A stretch of 64,000 bases of DNA from an uncultured Treponema sp. (GTDB lineage Bacteria; Spirochaetota; Spirochaetia; Treponematales; Treponemataceae): contig CASGDA010000002.1 of NCBI GenBank assembly GCA_949300145.1, positions 124,001 to 188,000 on the forward strand, in the 5' to 3' direction. Under the pieces are notes generated by a model. That model was not told where the DNA came from and ran no database searches. It was given only the letters and a program-made list of their open reading frames with translations. Of the stretch, positions 31,867-43,838 are shown piece after piece; position 1 is the first letter of the stretch; every line of letters starts with the position of its first letter. Made by a program: the position numbers and the translations under genes.

Positions 31867-31893
31867 TAAAGTTAAAAAAAAATATTCCGAAGA
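31867..31893 (+). promoter_or_regulatory. sigma-28 (FliA) promoter of flaB1
   Basis: TAAAGTTA (31867-31874), an 11-bp spacer and TCCGAAGA (31886-31893). The consensus for FliA promoters is TAAAGTTT-N11-GCCGATAA, so the spacing is exact and the -35 differs at one base. Transcription would start near 31901. Confidence 0.7.
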
Positions 31894-31900
31894 TATAGGC

Positions 31901-32019
31901 GGAATAAAGTGATTTTTAAGCCGCAGGGCTGTTCTTACGGCTGGAACATCAGTTCCGGAAGTCACTTTTATTCTCGGAAGGCAAGGATGCTTTCTGAATC
32001 TTTTTCATGGAGGAAATCT
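31901..32019 (+). promoter_or_regulatory. structured flaB1 leader with CsrA-type hairpin
   Basis: The roughly 120-nt 5' UTR can fold into a three-way junction: AAAGTGA (31906-31912) with 31962-31968, AGCCG (31919-31923) with 31938-31942, and GGAAC (31943-31947) with 31952-31956 over an ATCA loop. Downstream, GGCAAGGATGC (31980-31990) matches 8 of 10 core positions of the CsrA consensus ACARGGAUGU, with GGA in the loop of a small AAGGC/GCTTT hairpin. A second GGA lies in the Shine-Dalgarno ATGGAGGAA. csrA and fliW are encoded 8 kb away. Confidence 0.5.
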
Positions 32020-33016: not shown

Positions 33017-33260
33017 TATTATAGAATGTAAGTGTATATTTCTGCCTGCTTTCAGGCTTTTATACACAGGGTTCTTTGACAATCACCTCCAGGTCTTCCG
33101 GTACGGTACAGACGGTTACGTTTGATTACCTGCCGAAAACAGGGTTCAAGCGATACCTTCCGTATCGTGGCCGCTTTTCCGCGGAGGCGCTTCCGCGGGG
33201 ATTCTTGGACACGAACGGCCGGAATGCAAGGAATGCATACCGGAAGAATCTTCAAGGAGG
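33017..33260 (+). promoter_or_regulatory. long structured leader of flaB2
   Basis: The 388-bp gap before flaB2 holds no gene. TATTAT (33017-33022) is a possible -10; I see no sigma-28 site. The leader starts with GTGTATA (33032-33038) pairing with 33061-33067 around GCCTG/CAGGC. It ends with a rod from 33200 to 33250: GATTCTT with AAGAATC, CCGG with CCGG, then ATGCA (33224-33228) with TGCAT (33234-33238) presenting AGGAA in the loop, a CsrA-like site. The Shine-Dalgarno AAGGAGG follows at 33254. Confidence 0.45.
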
Positions 33261-33268
33261 GTCAAAAT

Positions 33269-34123
33269 ATGGTTATCAACCACAATTTGAGCGCTATGTA
33301 TGCCCAGCGGCAGTCCTCTGTAATTGAAAGCGGATTGCAGCACAACATCGAGCGGCTCTCAAGCGGTCAACGGATTAACCGTGCCGGTGATGATGCCAGC
33401 GGACTTGCCGTTTCCGAAAAAATGAGGACGCAAATCCGCGGTTTGAATCAAGCCGGTGAAAATATCCAGAACGGAGTGTCGTTTATCCAGGCTACCGAAG
33501 GGTATCTTGGCGAAACAACGGACATTGTCCAAAGGCTCCGGGAACTTTCAATCCAGGCTGCAAACGGAATTTATTCCGCTGAGGACAGAATGCAGATTCA
33601 GGTTGAAGTTTCACAGCTTGTGGATGAAGTTAACCGCATTGCAAGCCACGCGCAATTCAACGGGATGAATATCCTTACAGGACGTTTCGCCCGTGATTCC
33701 GCCATGGGTCCGATGCAGCTTCATGTCGGCGCAAACGTCGATCAGAATGAAACAATTTATATCGGAACTATGACAGCGACAGCTCTCGGTCTTACTGGAG
33801 CGCAAGGAGCGGAAGATTCTATGATTTCATTGTCATCTGTTGAAGGCGCTAACATGGCTATAGCGGCCCTTGATTCCGCATTGAAAACCATTAACAAACA
33901 GCGCGCTGATCTCGGTGCGTATCAGAACAGGTTTGAAATGGCATACAACGGAATCGCGATAGCCGCTGAAAATATGCAGGCGGCGGAATCCCGCATCAGG
34001 GATACGGATATGGCTGCGGAGATGGTTGACTTCACCAAAAACCAGATCCTTAGTCAGGCCGGCATTGCAATGGTTGCACAAGCTAATACACAGCCGCAGT
34101 CAGTTCTCAGACTGATGCAGTGA
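33269..34123 (+). CDS. flaB2: flagellin FlaB (core filament)
   Basis: A 284-residue core flagellin closely related to the one just upstream ([53 protein letters not shown]). The two are most alike in the terminal helices and differ around the middle. AAGGAGG lies 8 nt before the chosen ATG; the longer upstream frame runs through the leader and is not used. Different leader and promoter signals from flaB1 suggest the two filament subunits are timed or dosed differently. Confidence 0.95.
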
Positions 34124-34342: not shown

Positions 34343-34690
34343 ATGAGTATGGAGATTTCAAGCATCGGACAGCAACTGACGGCAATGGATCGCCGTGTAG
34401 AAGAAATACCGGCCGGTTCACTTCGGACTCAGCCTGCCGAAGAAACAAGAGCAGAGGCGGTTCATCAGGAAATGGACGTCTCTGAAGCGGTTGAGCAAAT
34501 CCAGAAAATAGCGGATATGTTCAACAGGGAATTAAAATTTCATGTCAGCAAGGAATTGAACAGGGTTATTGTCAAAGTGATAGACTCTTCTACCGATAAA
34601 GTAATCAGGGAGATTCCTTCGGCGGAAATCCAGAGATTACAGTTGAGAATAAAGGAAACCCTGGGACTTTTATTTGACGAGTCAATTTAA
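34343..34690 (+). CDS. flaG: FlaG family protein
   Basis: A 115-residue FlaG-type protein found beside fliD in many flagellar loci and linked to filament length control. The conserved C-terminal half reads ELKFHVSKELNRVIVKVID with IREIPSAEIQRLQLRIKE. GGAGG lies 7 nt before the ATG. A perfect ACGCCGG/CCGGCGT hairpin (34234-34252) in the upstream gap may be a second terminator for flaB2. It leads into fliD 47 nt downstream and is likely in the same operon. Confidence 0.9.
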   Translation: MSMEISSIGQQLTAMDRRVEEIPAGSLRTQPAEETRAEAVHQEMDVSEAVEQIQKIADMFNRELKFHVSKELNRVIVKVIDSSTDKVIREIPSAEIQRLQLRIKETLGLLFDESI

Positions 34691-34737: not shown

Positions 34738-36705
34738 GTGGCTGATATCAGCATTCCCGGAGTAACAGCGAGCAAATACAAGACAGAGGAACTCATAGAA
34801 GGTTTGATGAAGCTTGAACGGGTTCCACGGGAAAGAGCTGATGAAGACCTCCAGACATACAAAAAGCAGCAGGAAGCATGGAGACAGCTTTCCCGGCATG
34901 TCTCAACGCTGAGGGATTCTGTCAGAACCCTGTATTCGTATAACAACCCTTTTTCAGAAAAAACCGCGGAATCCTCCGACAGCGGGGCTGTCACAGCCAC
35001 AGCCAGCCGTGAGGCGCAGGATCAGAATTTCTCGGTAAGCGTATCCCAGGTCGCGTCGGCGGACAGTTTTTTGTCCAAAGAAATTCCCGAAAACGGAACA
35101 GTGGAAAAAGGCACCTACACATTCACAGTGGGAGACAAAAAACTGGAATTCGAATGGAAGGGCGGAAGCTATTCTGATTTCGTGACAGCGCTCAACCGCA
35201 GGGGCGGAGACATGCTGCGGGCGTCCCTCATAAAAACAGCGCCGGGTGAAAGGGCGCTTCTCATTGAATCGCTGAAGACGGGTGCAGACCAGCGGCTTGG
35301 TTTCGAGAATTCCGCCCTGGATTTTGCCCTGGAAACCGGGCTGATAACAAAAAACACATCTGCGGCGGTCTCCATACAGGAACAGGAAGCTGTGGTTCCG
35401 CCTGCATCTTCAAAAACCATGGATTTTTCCAGCCAGGTGAAAGCCTCCCAGGGCTATGTGCTTGAATATACTGTTTCCGCTGAAAGACAGGAGGCAGGAA
35501 CGGAAGAAACTCCGGAAGGAACCGTTCCGACGGAACCGCAGCTGCAAAAGCCTGGTGAAATTACATACAGCGGGATTACGATTGTAAACGCAAAATCAGA
35601 GACGGCGTTGACGGAAGAAACCGCCCCTCCCCCGCCGCCGGCTCCCGTGGAAACAAATTCGGTTCTGGCGCTTCGTTCCACCAGAGGGGCGGCGATACCG
35701 CTGCCGGACATTCCGGAATCCGGGGAAGAAAAGTTCACAATACAGCTCAACGAATTCGGAAATGTTGACGCCCTTCTGGTAAACAATAAGAATACAAACA
35801 GAAGCGTCAAAATCAGCAATATAAAAATATATGATCCGGCAACCGCGGGGGACTATACGCCGGTAAATCCCGTCTCGGTCGCAAAGGATGCGGTAATCAA
35901 ATACGAGGGCATCACGGTAACCCGGCCCACAAATACAATAGATGATTTGATTCCCGGTGTTTCCATATCCGTCCACGACACGGTTGAAAAGCCCGTTTCA
36001 ATAGACGTCAAGCCTGACACGGAAACCGCAAAAGAGGCTGTCATTTCTTTTGTGGCAAATTACAACAGGGTTATGGCGGAAATAAATATCCTTACACAGA
36101 ACAAACCTGAAATTATCACAGAGATTCAATATTTCACCCCGGAAGAAACGGAAAACGCAGAGGAAAAGCTCGGCATGATGCAGGGGGACATGACATTAAA
36201 CACGCTGAAATCGGCGTTACAGCGCATCACCTCAAATCCGTACACAGCCGATGACAATTCAGAATTCAGACTGCTTTCCCAGATAGGCATCTCCACAAGG
36301 GCTGATTCAGGCGGAGGGTTGGACGCCTCCAGATTGAGGGGCTACCTGGAAATAGACGAGGGGCGCCTGGATGATGCGCTGGAAAACTCAATGCAAAGCG
36401 TGAAAAGTCTTTTCGGTTTTGACTCTGACGGGGATCTGGTTGTAGACAGCGGCGCCGCGGTGGAAATGGAAAACAATGTGGCCCCCTATGTCCAGACGGG
36501 AGGTATTTTCGCGACCCGCACATCAGGATTGGCCACGAGAATAACGGAAACAGAAAGACGGATAGCGCAGATGGACCAGCAGCTTGAGGCGAAGGAGGCT
36601 TCGCTGCGGCAAAAGTACAGTCAAATGGAAGGAGCCCTGAACAGGCTGGAAAGTCAGTCAGAGTCAATTTCAAATTTCAGCAGAAACCGTTCTTCCCAGA
36701 ATTAA
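34738..36705 (+). CDS. fliD: flagellar filament cap protein FliD
   Basis: FliD (HAP2) caps the filament and folds exported flagellin at the tip. The N-terminal coiled coil (ISIPGVTASKYKTEELIEGL, MKLERVPRERADEDLQTYKK) and C-terminal FliD_C region (ISFVANYNRVMAEINILTQ, LSQIGISTRADSGGGLD, ITETERRIAQMDQQLEAKEA) are clear. Length 655 is in range. A proline-rich linker (ETAPPPPPAPVETN, about 294-308) splits the middle domain. GTG start with GGAG upstream; an out-of-frame ATG precedes it. Confidence 0.93.
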   Translation: MADISIPGVTASKYKTEELIEGLMKLERVPRERADEDLQTYKKQQEAWRQLSRHVSTLRDSVRTLYSYNNPFSEKTAESSDSGAVTATASREAQDQNFSVSVSQVASADSFLSKEIPENGTVEKGTYTFTVGDKKLEFEWKGGSYSDFVTALNRRGGDMLRASLIKTAPGERALLIESLKTGADQRLGFENSALDFALETGLITKNTSAAVSIQEQEAVVPPASSKTMDFSSQVKASQGYVLEYTVSAERQEAGTEETPEGTVPTEPQLQKPGEITYSGITIVNAKSETALTEETAPPPPPAPVETNSVLALRSTRGAAIPLPDIPESGEEKFTIQLNEFGNVDALLVNNKNTNRSVKISNIKIYDPATAGDYTPVNPVSVAKDAVIKYEGITVTRPTNTIDDLIPGVSISVHDTVEKPVSIDVKPDTETAKEAVISFVANYNRVMAEINILTQNKPEIITEIQYFTPEETENAEEKLGMMQGDMTLNTLKSALQRITSNPYTADDNSEFRLLSQIGISTRADSGGGLDASRLRGYLEIDEGRLDDALENSMQSVKSLFGFDSDGDLVVDSGAAVEMENNVAPYVQTGGIFATRTSGLATRITETERRIAQMDQQLEAKEASLRQKYSQMEGALNRLESQSESISNFSRNRSSQN

Positions 36706-40015: not shown

Positions 40016-40237
40016 TTACAATTTTATTTCCGGAAGATTTTTCAAGGATTCGGAGGAAACCGCGGCGGCTTTATTTTCTTTCTGGACCGCTTCAAAAACC
40101 TCATGCCTGAAAACCTTTACAGATTTAGGAGCCTCAACTCCAATCTTGACCTGTTCGCCTCTGGTCTCGATTATAGTCAGGACCACATCATCACCGATCA
40201 TTATCTTTTCATTGACTTTTCGTGAAAGTATCAGCAT
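40016..40237 (-). CDS. csrA: carbon storage/translation regulator CsrA
   Basis: A 73-residue RNA-binding dimer that blocks translation by binding GGA hairpins near ribosome-binding sites. The sequence [20 protein letters not shown] with [16 protein letters not shown] is canonical, including the conserved Arg of the RNA-binding strand; a 15-residue tail extends it. It overlaps the end of fliW by 7 nt. FliW sequesters CsrA when flagellin is scarce in other bacteria, and two flaB leaders in this window carry candidate CsrA sites. Confidence 0.97.
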
Positions 40238-40683
40238 GGGCGGCGCTCCCTGGCGGCGGCTAATTCGGCCGCAATGTCATGTTTGGTGCTCCACCTGGGG
40301 TCGGAGTGGATCGCCTGAATCGCCTTATTGTTCTTCTTGTTTATGATAAGAGGTCCCTGCAGATTCGCCGTCACGGGGGAACCGTCGGAGGGAATCGTGA
40401 TGAGGGCGAAAACCAAGACATCGGAGGGGGAATCCACACCGAGTGCGGTGACGTCAGAGTCGTCGATGTTTATTTCGTAATCAGCCCTGAAAAGGAACGG
40501 ATCCACAGCTAAAAAAGCTAAATTCACGTCCTCAAGGCACTGAACCCACACAAAAGGTTTTTGAACCGCATCAATCAACGCGAAATCATGATACCCGGGA
40601 AAGCCGAGAAAACCTTCATTCATATGAATAATCTGTTTTTCCACAATGGAAACATTTCCCATTGCCTTCGTTTGAATTTCCAT
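40231..40683 (-). CDS. fliW: flagellar assembly factor FliW
   Basis: A 150-residue FliW that binds flagellin or CsrA in a partner-switch. Landmarks are [34 protein letters not shown] and [20 protein letters not shown]. It is fourth in flgN-flgK-flgL-fliW-csrA, the same order as the Bacillus late flagellar operon apart from missing genes. The gap to flgL is 15 nt and it overlaps csrA by 7 nt. Confidence 0.96.
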
Positions 40684-40698
40684 TTTTCCACCTTACCA

Positions 40699-41943
40699 TT
40701 ACCGCAGGTAATCCAGAAGAGTATTTGAATATAGTTTCCCCGCAGTACTGAGAGCAGCCTGATGAGTATATTCAAGCATTTTAAGGTCTGTCACCGCTTT
40801 TGTAAAGTCCAAATCAGTTTCCCTGGAATCAGCGGCCTGTGTATTAAGGGTCTGCGTATCAAGACGGGCAGAAATAACCTGCGCCCTCTCATACCTTGAA
40901 CCCAATTCGGCCATTCTGGTGGCAAGGTTATCTATGGAACCGTCAAGGGCTCCCAAAACACGGCCTCCTATTGTCTCCTGGTCGCCTGAAAGCATTGCGT
41001 CCCGCAGGGAAATCACAGCATCAAAAAGGGACCCGCCGGAAACACGAACAGAATCAGCAATATTATAGGGAGGTCTTTGTCCGCTTTTTATCAGTCCAAG
41101 TGAAGACAGAACTTCCTCTCCCTCCACATCCCGGAGCCACAACTGCCGGCTGTCCGTTGTGCTGATATTAAGGCCGTTTGTCACCGGATCAAGACCTGCC
41201 TTAACCGCGGCGCCTGAAGAATTTATCTTGGAAATAACCGCATAAACAGTGTCACCTGCGGAAAGGGAAATTTCAACCCCATCAATCTCAATGGTGCTGT
41301 CCGCAGGAACCACATATCCGGTTGCATCAGTCTGGGAGAAAAGACTTTGAGGTTCCGCCCAGAATGTACGGTTTCCGGCATAATCGGCATCAAGGAAAGC
41401 GGTTTCGTCCACCTCCACCTTTTTTGTATCCAGGGAACCGTTATAGCGCACTTCTTTTATCGTGGGGTTCCCCGCGCCGTCCACATCTCCGTAAACAACT
41501 TCAAACGGTTCGGTAAAACTCTTTGAACCGGCAAAAACCCGCACACCGTCCGGTCCCACGGCATTACCGTTCACAAGAAGTTCCTTCAAAAGCTCGTCCA
41601 CTTCCGAAGCCATATTCTTCAAGTCAGAGGGGGTGTAAGTACCGTTCGCACCGGAGACCGCCAGCTCCCTTATGCGCTGCATAACCTGCATCGAGCTATT
41701 CATATAACCTTCCGTGACCTTGAACCTGTCCGCAAGGGTTTTGGCGTTTTTATCAAAACGCTCAAGACGGGCAAGATAAGAACGGTAACGGACCGAATGT
41801 CCGGCGGCGAGGGGATCATCACGGAGATTTGATATCCGTGACTGACCGGCTATCTGACCGTTCTGGGTATTCAGCCTTGATTCCTGACGGCGAAGGGCAT
41901 ACTGCAGGTCAGTATGTTGGATATTGGAACTTATTCTTCTCAT
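40699..41943 (-). CDS. flgL: hook-filament junction protein FlgL
   Basis: FlgL (HAP3) joins filament to hook. The flagellin-like N-terminus (MRRISSNIQHTDLQYALRRQ, RISNLRDDPLAAGHSVRYR) and C-terminus (DFTKAVTDLKMLEYTHQAAL, ending KLYSNTLLDYLR) are intact. At 414 residues it is longer than the enteric protein because of a central domain (about 150-290). AGGAGG lies 7 nt before the ATG. It is 17 nt downstream of flgK. Confidence 0.95.
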   Translation of the reverse strand: MRRISSNIQHTDLQYALRRQESRLNTQNGQIAGQSRISNLRDDPLAAGHSVRYRSYLARLERFDKNAKTLADRFKVTEGYMNSSMQVMQRIRELAVSGANGTYTPSDLKNMASEVDELLKELLVNGNAVGPDGVRVFAGSKSFTEPFEVVYGDVDGAGNPTIKEVRYNGSLDTKKVEVDETAFLDADYAGNRTFWAEPQSLFSQTDATGYVVPADSTIEIDGVEISLSAGDTVYAVISKINSSGAAVKAGLDPVTNGLNISTTDSRQLWLRDVEGEEVLSSLGLIKSGQRPPYNIADSVRVSGGSLFDAVISLRDAMLSGDQETIGGRVLGALDGSIDNLATRMAELGSRYERAQVISARLDTQTLNTQAADSRETDLDFTKAVTDLKMLEYTHQAALSTAGKLYSNTLLDYLR

Positions 41944-41960
41944 TTTTTCACCCTCCTAGG

Positions 41961-43838
41961 TTAAACTCCCATCCTGTTTATAATCGTATCAAGCATATCA
42001 TTTACAGTGGCTATAAAACGGGCGGCCGCATTATATCCGTGCTGGAATTTAATGATGTCCGCCAGCTCTTCATCGATATTCACGCCGGAAATTGAATCCC
42101 GGGTATCATGCAACTCTTTCATTATCGCACTCTGCGTTTCAAGGGAAAGCTGGGCCTGCTCACCTTTCAAACCGATGGAGGTGACTGTATCAGCGAAATA
42201 GTCATCGAAGGTTCTGGTATTCCCGACCATGACGGGAGTATTCCTGATGGAGGCGATTGCGGATGCGATTGTATTGTCCCCCGGGAAAGCGACCCCGTCA
42301 TAACCGGCTTTTCCGGCGGCGATGGTATTGACATCCGCCGTTATTTCGGCATTGACTTCCATCCAGCCTGAAGGATGGGCGACAGGAGCGACCGCATACC
42401 TGACGTTTTCTCCGGCGAGGGACAACACCGCATCGGCTCTTTCCCAGTCGTAAGCGTTTTCAGGTCCGTATCCGGACAGAATTCCCGCGTATCCGGCAAG
42501 GAAACGTCCGGAATCCTCCAGATGACGGATAACAAAATCAGGGTTTTCTGGATCCCGGGCGGATGTACCTTTAAGGATCAGCCGGCCGTCCCCGTCCAGG
42601 GAGGCGGTGACTTCCGCACCGGAATTGTTTATTCTGGCGATGACGTCAGAAACCATATCGGTGGAATAATAGGGAACCTGGACGAGACCTTCAGGAGCAG
42701 AAAAAGTCATCACGCCTTCAAGGCCCACCTGTGCCCGCGGCGAAAGGGAGTTCGCACCGCTTATCCTGAAGATATATGAAGAATCATATTCCCCGTCACC
42801 ATTCCTGTCATAATTTCCCGCGGTATTTTCGATGAAATGCTGTTCCACAAAGAAATCCACGTTGGTTTTGCCGTTTGGAGACATTCCTTCCCGGTGGATG
42901 CTGTTTACCAAATCCACGAAATTCATCGCCATCGTATCAAGATTCTGTATTTCACTCCTGATGTCGGAGTCTCTCAGCTCAAGGAGGGCCCCGAGTTTTC
43001 CACCCGTAAAATCAACCTCTTCGCCCGTGCCGGACCATACCACCCGGTGATATCCGTCATTCTCAAAACCTGAGGCGAGGGAAAAGGTACGGAAAGTCCT
43101 GCCCTGTACCAATTCAAAGCCGTCAATATGAATAATGTATTCCTCGTCCCTGTCCCTGATATCAAAGGTCACACCTATCAATTCCGAAAGTTTTTCCGTG
43201 AGGACATCCCTTTTATCCATGAGGTCATTGGGGTTGTCGCCCATGGCTTTCACTTTGACTATCTCTTCATTGAGGGCGGCTATACGGCCGGATATATCAT
43301 TCACCTGTTTCACGACCGCTTCAATGTCACCGTTAATCATGTCCCCTATTCCCCGCAGGGCCCTGTACTGGTTATGGACGGTATCGGTGAATGTCTGTCC
43401 ACGGGTAAGAACCGCCTGTCTGGCGCTTTTGGATTCAGGATAGAGGGAAAGTTCTTCCCAGGCATCCCAAAACTGATCCATCCTTGTCCGCAGGGAGGTT
43501 TCATCAGGTTCATTATAAACCTGCTCCATCATCAGAAGATACTGGTTCCTGGTTTCCCAGTAACCCGTGTTTTCAGACTGGGCGACTATCCGTTTATCCA
43601 AAAGCGTATCACGTATACGCCTTATCGACTCAATTGAAACACCCTGCCCTATCTGCCCGGGGGTTTCAGCTCTTGACAAATCAGGCCTGTACAGAGGATC
43701 CGTTGCCCTCAGCTCAACCCGTTGGCGCGAATATCCTTCTGTGGAAGAATTGGACACATTGTGCCCCGCAGTCTGAATGCTCTGGGAATGAGCGAACAGG
43801 CTGCGTTTCCCCATTTCTATTCCTGAAAAAGTTGACAT
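41961..43838 (-). CDS. flgK: hook-filament junction protein FlgK
   Basis: FlgK (HAP1), 625 residues. The rod/hook-family N-terminus includes SLFAHSQSIQTAGHNVSNSS and GYSRQRVEL; the C-terminus is the typical KFQHGYNAAARFIATVNDML. A large central domain contains two or more beta-rich units. It lies 27 nt after the flgN-like gene in the late flagellar operon. Confidence 0.95.
   Translation of the reverse strand: MSTFSGIEMGKRSLFAHSQSIQTAGHNVSNSSTEGYSRQRVELRATDPLYRPDLSRAETPGQIGQGVSIESIRRIRDTLLDKRIVAQSENTGYWETRNQYLLMMEQVYNEPDETSLRTRMDQFWDAWEELSLYPESKSARQAVLTRGQTFTDTVHNQYRALRGIGDMINGDIEAVVKQVNDISGRIAALNEEIVKVKAMGDNPNDLMDKRDVLTEKLSELIGVTFDIRDRDEEYIIHIDGFELVQGRTFRTFSLASGFENDGYHRVVWSGTGEEVDFTGGKLGALLELRDSDIRSEIQNLDTMAMNFVDLVNSIHREGMSPNGKTNVDFFVEQHFIENTAGNYDRNGDGEYDSSYIFRISGANSLSPRAQVGLEGVMTFSAPEGLVQVPYYSTDMVSDVIARINNSGAEVTASLDGDGRLILKGTSARDPENPDFVIRHLEDSGRFLAGYAGILSGYGPENAYDWERADAVLSLAGENVRYAVAPVAHPSGWMEVNAEITADVNTIAAGKAGYDGVAFPGDNTIASAIASIRNTPVMVGNTRTFDDYFADTVTSIGLKGEQAQLSLETQSAIMKELHDTRDSISGVNIDEELADIIKFQHGYNAAARFIATVNDMLDTIINRMGV

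Follow-up and report, generated by a model that had tools for sequence, protein, structure and literature searches.

In Bacillus, CsrA represses translation of the flagellin gene hag by bridging, and FliW relieves the repression. Spirochetes are believed to control flagellin mainly after transcription, a view with few direct tests behind it. The window analysed here is a 64-kb stretch from the 2.24-Mb genome of a treponeme, and the flaB1 leader that it contains is very probably best explained by bridging repression through CsrA, with relief by FliW. For this leader, the promoter motif, fold, covariation, conservation and the presence of csrA and fliW were computed.

Passages of a 2022 paper on T. 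denticola state that CsrA sites lie near the Shine-Dalgarno sequences (SDs) of flaB1 and flaB2, assign the flaB1 promoter as sigma-70-like, and map the flaB2 transcription start 124 nt 5' of the start codon (PMC9481697). ANGGAN is the loop of RsmE ligands, two sites can be bridged over 10-63 nt, and CsrA ligands obtained by SELEX mostly have four or fewer contiguous pairs (PMC7652899).

Promoter and anatomy of the flaB1 leader

The sole zero-mismatch site for TAAAGTTN-N11-NCCGANNA in the 64-kb window lies 5' of flaB1 (31867-31893, Table 1), and allowing one mismatch gave 3 matches against 0.44 expected, a number reached in 0 of 100 shuffles. The site is a TAAAGTTT-N11-GCCGATAA-like sequence, agreeing with TAAAGTTT at 7 of 8 letters (-35) and with GCCGATAA at 5 of 8 (-10); what a preliminary description of this DNA had called an exact sigma-28 promoter is exact in its N11 spacing only, not in its letters. 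The sister species has TAAAGTTT-N11-TCCGAATA at this place, and a TAAA-N(13-18)-CCGA promoter precedes the flaB1 leader in 27 of 28 other-treponeme loci checked. A predicted sigma-28 promoter of flaB1 is supported by its letters and by its recurrence in relatives. T. putidum flaB1 (L050, 5' of 2501) has a sigma-28-like TAAAGTTT ... GCCGATAA, unlike the sigma-70-like promoter reported for T. denticola flaB1.

Table 1. Coordinates of features in the window and of two-hairpin RNA examples at other treponeme loci (numbered within each locus).
Feature	Position	Strand	Details
sigma-28 (FliA)-type promoter of flaB1	31867-31893	+	-35 TAAAGTTA 31867-31874, N11, -10 TCCGAAGA 31886-31893
Expected transcription start of flaB1	31899-31901	+	inferred from -10 position
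Three-way junction	31902-31973	+	P1 31902-31917/31957-31973, P2 31919-31942, P3 31943-31956
GGA-loop hairpin, putative CsrA site 1	31974-31997	+	10-bp stem, AGGA tetraloop 31984-31987
SD hairpin UUUUC-AUGGA-GGAAA, putative CsrA site 2	32002-32016	+	GGA 32009-32011 in AUGGAGG
flaB1, flagellin, 286 aa	32020-32880	+	translation; flagellin families, below curated cut-offs
Second flaB leader	33096-33268	+	stem 33103-33120/33151-33168; GGCGC hairpin about 33176-33201; GGA-type hairpin and SD 33217-33266
Second flagellin gene (flaB3-type position)	33269-34123	+	family search
FlaG-like protein	34343-34690	+	family match below cut-off
fliD	34738-36705	+	over cut-off
csrA, 73 aa, C-terminal extension	40016-40237	-	PF02599 83.7 bits; ORF
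fliW, overlaps csrA	40231-40683	-	PF02623 126.6 bits; NCBIfam
flgL and flgK, co-directional with fliW-csrA	40699-43838	-	over family cut-offs
Two-hairpin RNA, L131	1501-1601	-
Two-hairpin RNA, L024	1369-1469
Two-hairpin RNA, L084	2347-2446

Folding of the approximately 120-nt leader gave an MFE of -47 kcal/mol, compared with -30.2 ± 3.4 for shuffles (z about -5; 0/200). The order from 5' to 3' is three-way junction, GGA hairpin and SD, and the promoter, leader and hairpin were all found where the preliminary description had placed them. The GCAAGGATGC within the GGA hairpin (31981-31990) had been counted there as 8 of 10 matches to the CsrA core, which is correct against ACARGGAUGU, and the fold agrees with the GGA in the loop. 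Directly 3' of this hairpin, a U-rich tract (31998-32006) is terminator-like, and its conservation is limited to this genus (three genomes). In the window MFE structure the SD is paired with the start-codon region instead of forming its own short hairpin, and relatives conserve the alternative SD hairpin of the UUUUC-AUGGA-GGAAA form with GGA in the loop. The distance from the loop GGA to the SD GGA is 24 nt, inside the bridging range of 10-63 nt (PMC7652899), as the earlier suggestion of two-site spacing had it. Since hairpin 1 has 9-10 bp, and SELEX ligands mostly four or fewer contiguous ones, it may be more stable than ideal.

Conservation of the GGA and SD hairpins

For comparison across the family, 53 flaB1 leaders were gathered from whole genomes and GTDB contigs; these share an ANGGA stem-loop with a GGA-GGA distance of 22-29 nt, and the SD reads UUCC-ANGGA-GGAA (TTCCANGGAGGAA-type sequence) in almost every one. 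Leaders for the covariation count were chosen for having ANGGA and, in one sequence, 6 or more of 9 pairs, a selection that raises the percentage paired and not the double changes. Covariation, proposed beforehand as the check on the leader, was strong for the GGA hairpin (helix 1; the SD hairpin was helix 2), with both partners altered at 9 of 10 pairs among 49 aligned leaders. The GGA/SD structure in these 49 leaders had a covariation score of 0.459, against 0.065-0.097 with the partner slid, and the alignment contained 141 double-changed cells, against 53.5 in shuffles (0/500). An independent fixed-register count found 371 of 400 pairs, compared with 256 ± 6.7 after shuffling.

Conservation at the protein level, with translation starting at an in-frame upstream GTG (31909), was also considered, since the window frame is open to that position and the 120 nt upstream contain no in-frame stop in the sister species either. 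Most other leaders, however, have in-frame stops within 120 nt, the double changes follow base pairing, a strong SD lies 5' of ATG 32020, and the spacer lengths of 22-29 nt do not change in multiples of three, which argues against a coding reason for the conservation; the in-frame reading has next to no chance of being correct and was dropped on these four points.

A covariance model (R1) was built from the aligned flaB1 leaders, comprising the GGA and SD hairpins, and matched 48 of 59 genomes across the order. Within the family it matched 179 of 195 genomes (19 of 20 genera), with a single match in almost every case, and 120 of the 124 high-quality genomes; since the training leaders of R1 came from this family, these family-wide matches are not fully independent. 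The window flaB1 leader scored 53.6 bits, and flaB1 alone was marked in the window's own genome (E 1.4e-10). A DNA search of the 59 genomes recovered the full leader, besides the window's own, only in the sister species (G002, 92%), and among the good DNA matches the similarity of the other flaB1 leaders begins at or after the GGA hairpin. The GGA hairpin and SD hairpin together are most likely a family-wide regulatory element.

Reading the hairpin at 31974-31997 and its U-run (ATCTTTTTC) as an intrinsic terminator would make the leader an attenuator, with the junction as antiterminator or sensor. A terminator scan did find the 10-bp stem followed by a T-rich tract, with the U-run kept in 3 of 3 genomes of the genus; other genera, however, lack the U-run and yet retain the hairpin and its GGA loop, the terminator-like sites in the region are in moderate excess (11, against 5.8 ± 2.4 shuffled), and the folds contain no alternative antiterminator pairing. 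This reading is very improbable. As an intrinsic terminator the candidate was rejected, the stem with U-run being conserved in this genus only.

Structures 5' of the GGA hairpin

The three-way junction, described earlier with stems at 31906-31968, is a real predicted fold and extends slightly wider, over 31902-31973 (z -3.8 when folded alone). The sister species keeps the topology (leader z -2.5), a third species of the genus (G001) has a single long hairpin in its place, and the leader of another treponeme (L019) has a short hairpin only. In a gapped comparison of G000 with G002 (one insertion and one deletion), 24 of the 29 junction pairs were unchanged, 1 was changed on one side, 4 were broken or gapped and 0 were compensatory; changes were rarer at paired positions (5/58) than at unpaired ones (8/19; Fisher p 0.002), and 14% of random mutants folded at least as well as the sister junction. 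The junction stems thus failed the covariation check that the GGA hairpin passed, with 0 compensatory pairs between two species, in a comparison that covered two other genomes of the genus. The flaB1 leader had no Rfam match up to E 10. Other genera yielded no junction, and their leaders carry at this place either a plain hairpin or another structured element. For the junction, a conserved RNA family is not supported, given the lack of compensatory changes and the other fold in G001. The predicted junction is confined to two species, this organism and a close relative, and its pattern of change fits a loosely constrained, recently evolved 5' stem structure, not a conserved aptamer.

In many flaB1 leaders, two long hairpins separate the sigma-28 promoter from the GGA hairpin, hairpin I capped CUUC-GUN-GAAG and hairpin II with the loop GUAGCCUUGUAA. 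A model (R2) was built from 8 of these leaders, using a subset model and structural re-alignment, and matched 126 of 195 family genomes, in nearly every case with a single match, but in 5 of 20 genera only; the window's genus (G000, G001, G002) had no R2 match. In 28 of 28 loci checked, the two-hairpin RNA is followed by the GGA hairpin, the SD and the flaB start. Among 45 distinct sequences, changes on both sides were found in 26 of 32 pairs and 93.6% of cells could pair, which 0 of 500 shuffles reached, and the covariation score was 0.524 against 0.05-0.09 for slid controls. The two-hairpin alignment (A6) was fitted to the model, and 2 of its 52 rows (L144 and L149, + strand of the locus) are minus-strand artefacts, which R2 produces because hairpin II is nearly palindromic. 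No meaningful match in Rfam 15 and no description in a literature search were found for the two-hairpin RNA. Judged from the alignments, it is an undescribed structured RNA in the flaB1 leaders of most other treponemes, and a concrete regulatory-RNA candidate.

That this slot holds a strongly conserved RNA in other treponemes speaks for a junction that would itself be a regulatory RNA sensing a ligand or protein and working ahead of the CsrA switch. The stability of the junction alone (z -3.8) and the scarcity of changes at its paired positions point the same way; against this stand the absence of compensatory changes, the proportion of random mutants folding as well as the sister sequence, the single long hairpin in the third species, the lack of any Rfam match, and the restriction to two species, from which a conserved loop sequence is not definable. 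We consider a sensing junction quite unlikely. Unlikely too is a composite switch, in which a clade-specific 5' sensor (the two-hairpin RNA in most species, the junction in this genus) would report a second signal and set flagellin output together with the CsrA double hairpin. The junction is probably a 5'-stabilising or insulating module, which would most likely protect an abundant mRNA at its 5' end or prevent misfolding of the CsrA hairpin.

Proposed CsrA-FliW control and related systems

The csrA-fliW pair lies about 8 kb downstream of the flaB1 leader and adjoins flgL and flgK. In a search of 39 genomes, csrA was found in 34 and fliW in 34; another survey found csrA in 44 of 48 genomes, and since csrA is almost ubiquitous, correlating the hairpin with csrA has little power. 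Two genomes, G009 (99% complete, 80 contigs) and G012 (63% complete), have the GGA hairpin and gave no match to CsrA or FliW, perhaps owing to assembly gaps.

The locus has the features of a CsrA two-site, SD-occluding system of the hag/glgC type, namely an ANGGAN hairpin loop, a GGA overlapping the SD, a spacing within 10-63 nt and an encoded csrA, and those of a FliW-CsrA-flagellin homeostasis circuit, with fliW present and overlapping csrA. From these we infer CsrA binding, repression and FliW relief at flaB1. In the proposed sequence of events, FliA-driven transcription would yield a leader RNA whose hairpin loops present two GGA sites, and a CsrA dimer would bind hairpin 31974-31997 with one face and bridge 24 nt with the other to the SD hairpin at 32002-32016, blocking the ribosome and turning flaB1 translation off. 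Export of flagellin would free FliW, which would bind CsrA and lift the block. The CsrA reading first offered in the preliminary description is strongly supported at the sequence level, by the covarying hairpin, the ANGGA loop, the SD site, the near-universal occurrence and the nearby csrA-fliW. If so, the leader offers a defined two-hairpin CsrA target, shared by almost all of the treponeme family, with exact nucleotides to mutate.

The second flaB leader of the window gave a weak R1 match (E 0.004). Three parts of it recur in relatives: a long covarying stem, a hairpin with GGCGC and a hairpin of the GGA type. Neither this leader nor that of flaB1 reached the gathering cut-off of Rfam Termite-flg (RF01729), and the second leader looks like a distant Termite-flg relative below threshold. 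Like the window flaB1 leader, Termite-flg is a flagellin leader RNA with a GGA hairpin before the SD at its end; its 5' part (a long stem, and GGCGC in a loop) differs, being of the second-gene flaB leader type. A related second-flaB leader (L025 2609-2714) scored 53.9 bits to Termite-flg, and the Termite-flg 3' hairpin has AAGGAU in its loop, so that Termite-flg is probably a treponeme flaB leader with a putative CsrA site. The GGA element would then explain the Termite-flg 3' hairpin as a likely CsrA site; CsrA goes unmentioned in the main text of the 2010 paper.

Other flaB leader types were also seen. Second flaB leaders L015, L021, L023, L029, L083, L087, L091, L099, L100, L104 and L107 keep the pre-SD hairpin with an ANGA-like loop (e.g. 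AACATGATGTT), not ANGGA, a pattern that would fit loss or alteration of the CsrA contact on a retained stem. About 190 nt 5' of the flaB start, L042, L044, L045, L047, L057 and L072 have CCGTCTTCTGCGG ... AGAGGATCCGG ... CGGCAGGGATGCCG (T. putidum second locus type), and in this CCGTCTTCTGCGG-type leader, likewise conserved, the GGA hairpin is farther from the start codon. L043, L049, L052, L064 and L075 (gut/rumen Treponema, T. bryantii) have the conserved flaB leader AGGGTGGTGGAAACCCGTGAGATAAACCACGTTGTGG without the GGA hairpin, though csrA is present.

The ANGGA loops, the spacing within bridging range, csrA-fliW and the T. denticola statement together identify the proposed mechanism as the known one, to which the present analysis adds its precise anatomy, covariation and near-universal spread in the family. 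CsrA at treponeme flaB leaders is not a new idea, having already been stated for T. denticola flaB1/flaB2 in the passages cited above (PMC9481697), which describe a spirochete flaB with fliW-csrA beside flgK-flgL and CsrA sites near the SD, as in the window; those passages contain no structure or conservation analysis, and the T. denticola flaB1 promoter in them is sigma-70-like, whereas that of the window is sigma-28-type. Escherichia coli glgC resembles the window in having a high-affinity hairpin GGA 5' of an SD site, bridged by one dimer, and differs in having four sites and the CsrB/C RNAs, rather than FliW, as antagonists. The Bacillus subtilis hag leader likewise belongs to a flagellin gene and carries two CsrA sites, of which one covers the SD, in a genome encoding fliW and a CsrA with a C-terminal extension; in contrast to hag, both sites in the window can sit in ANGGA-loop hairpins, with a clade-specific module 5' of them.
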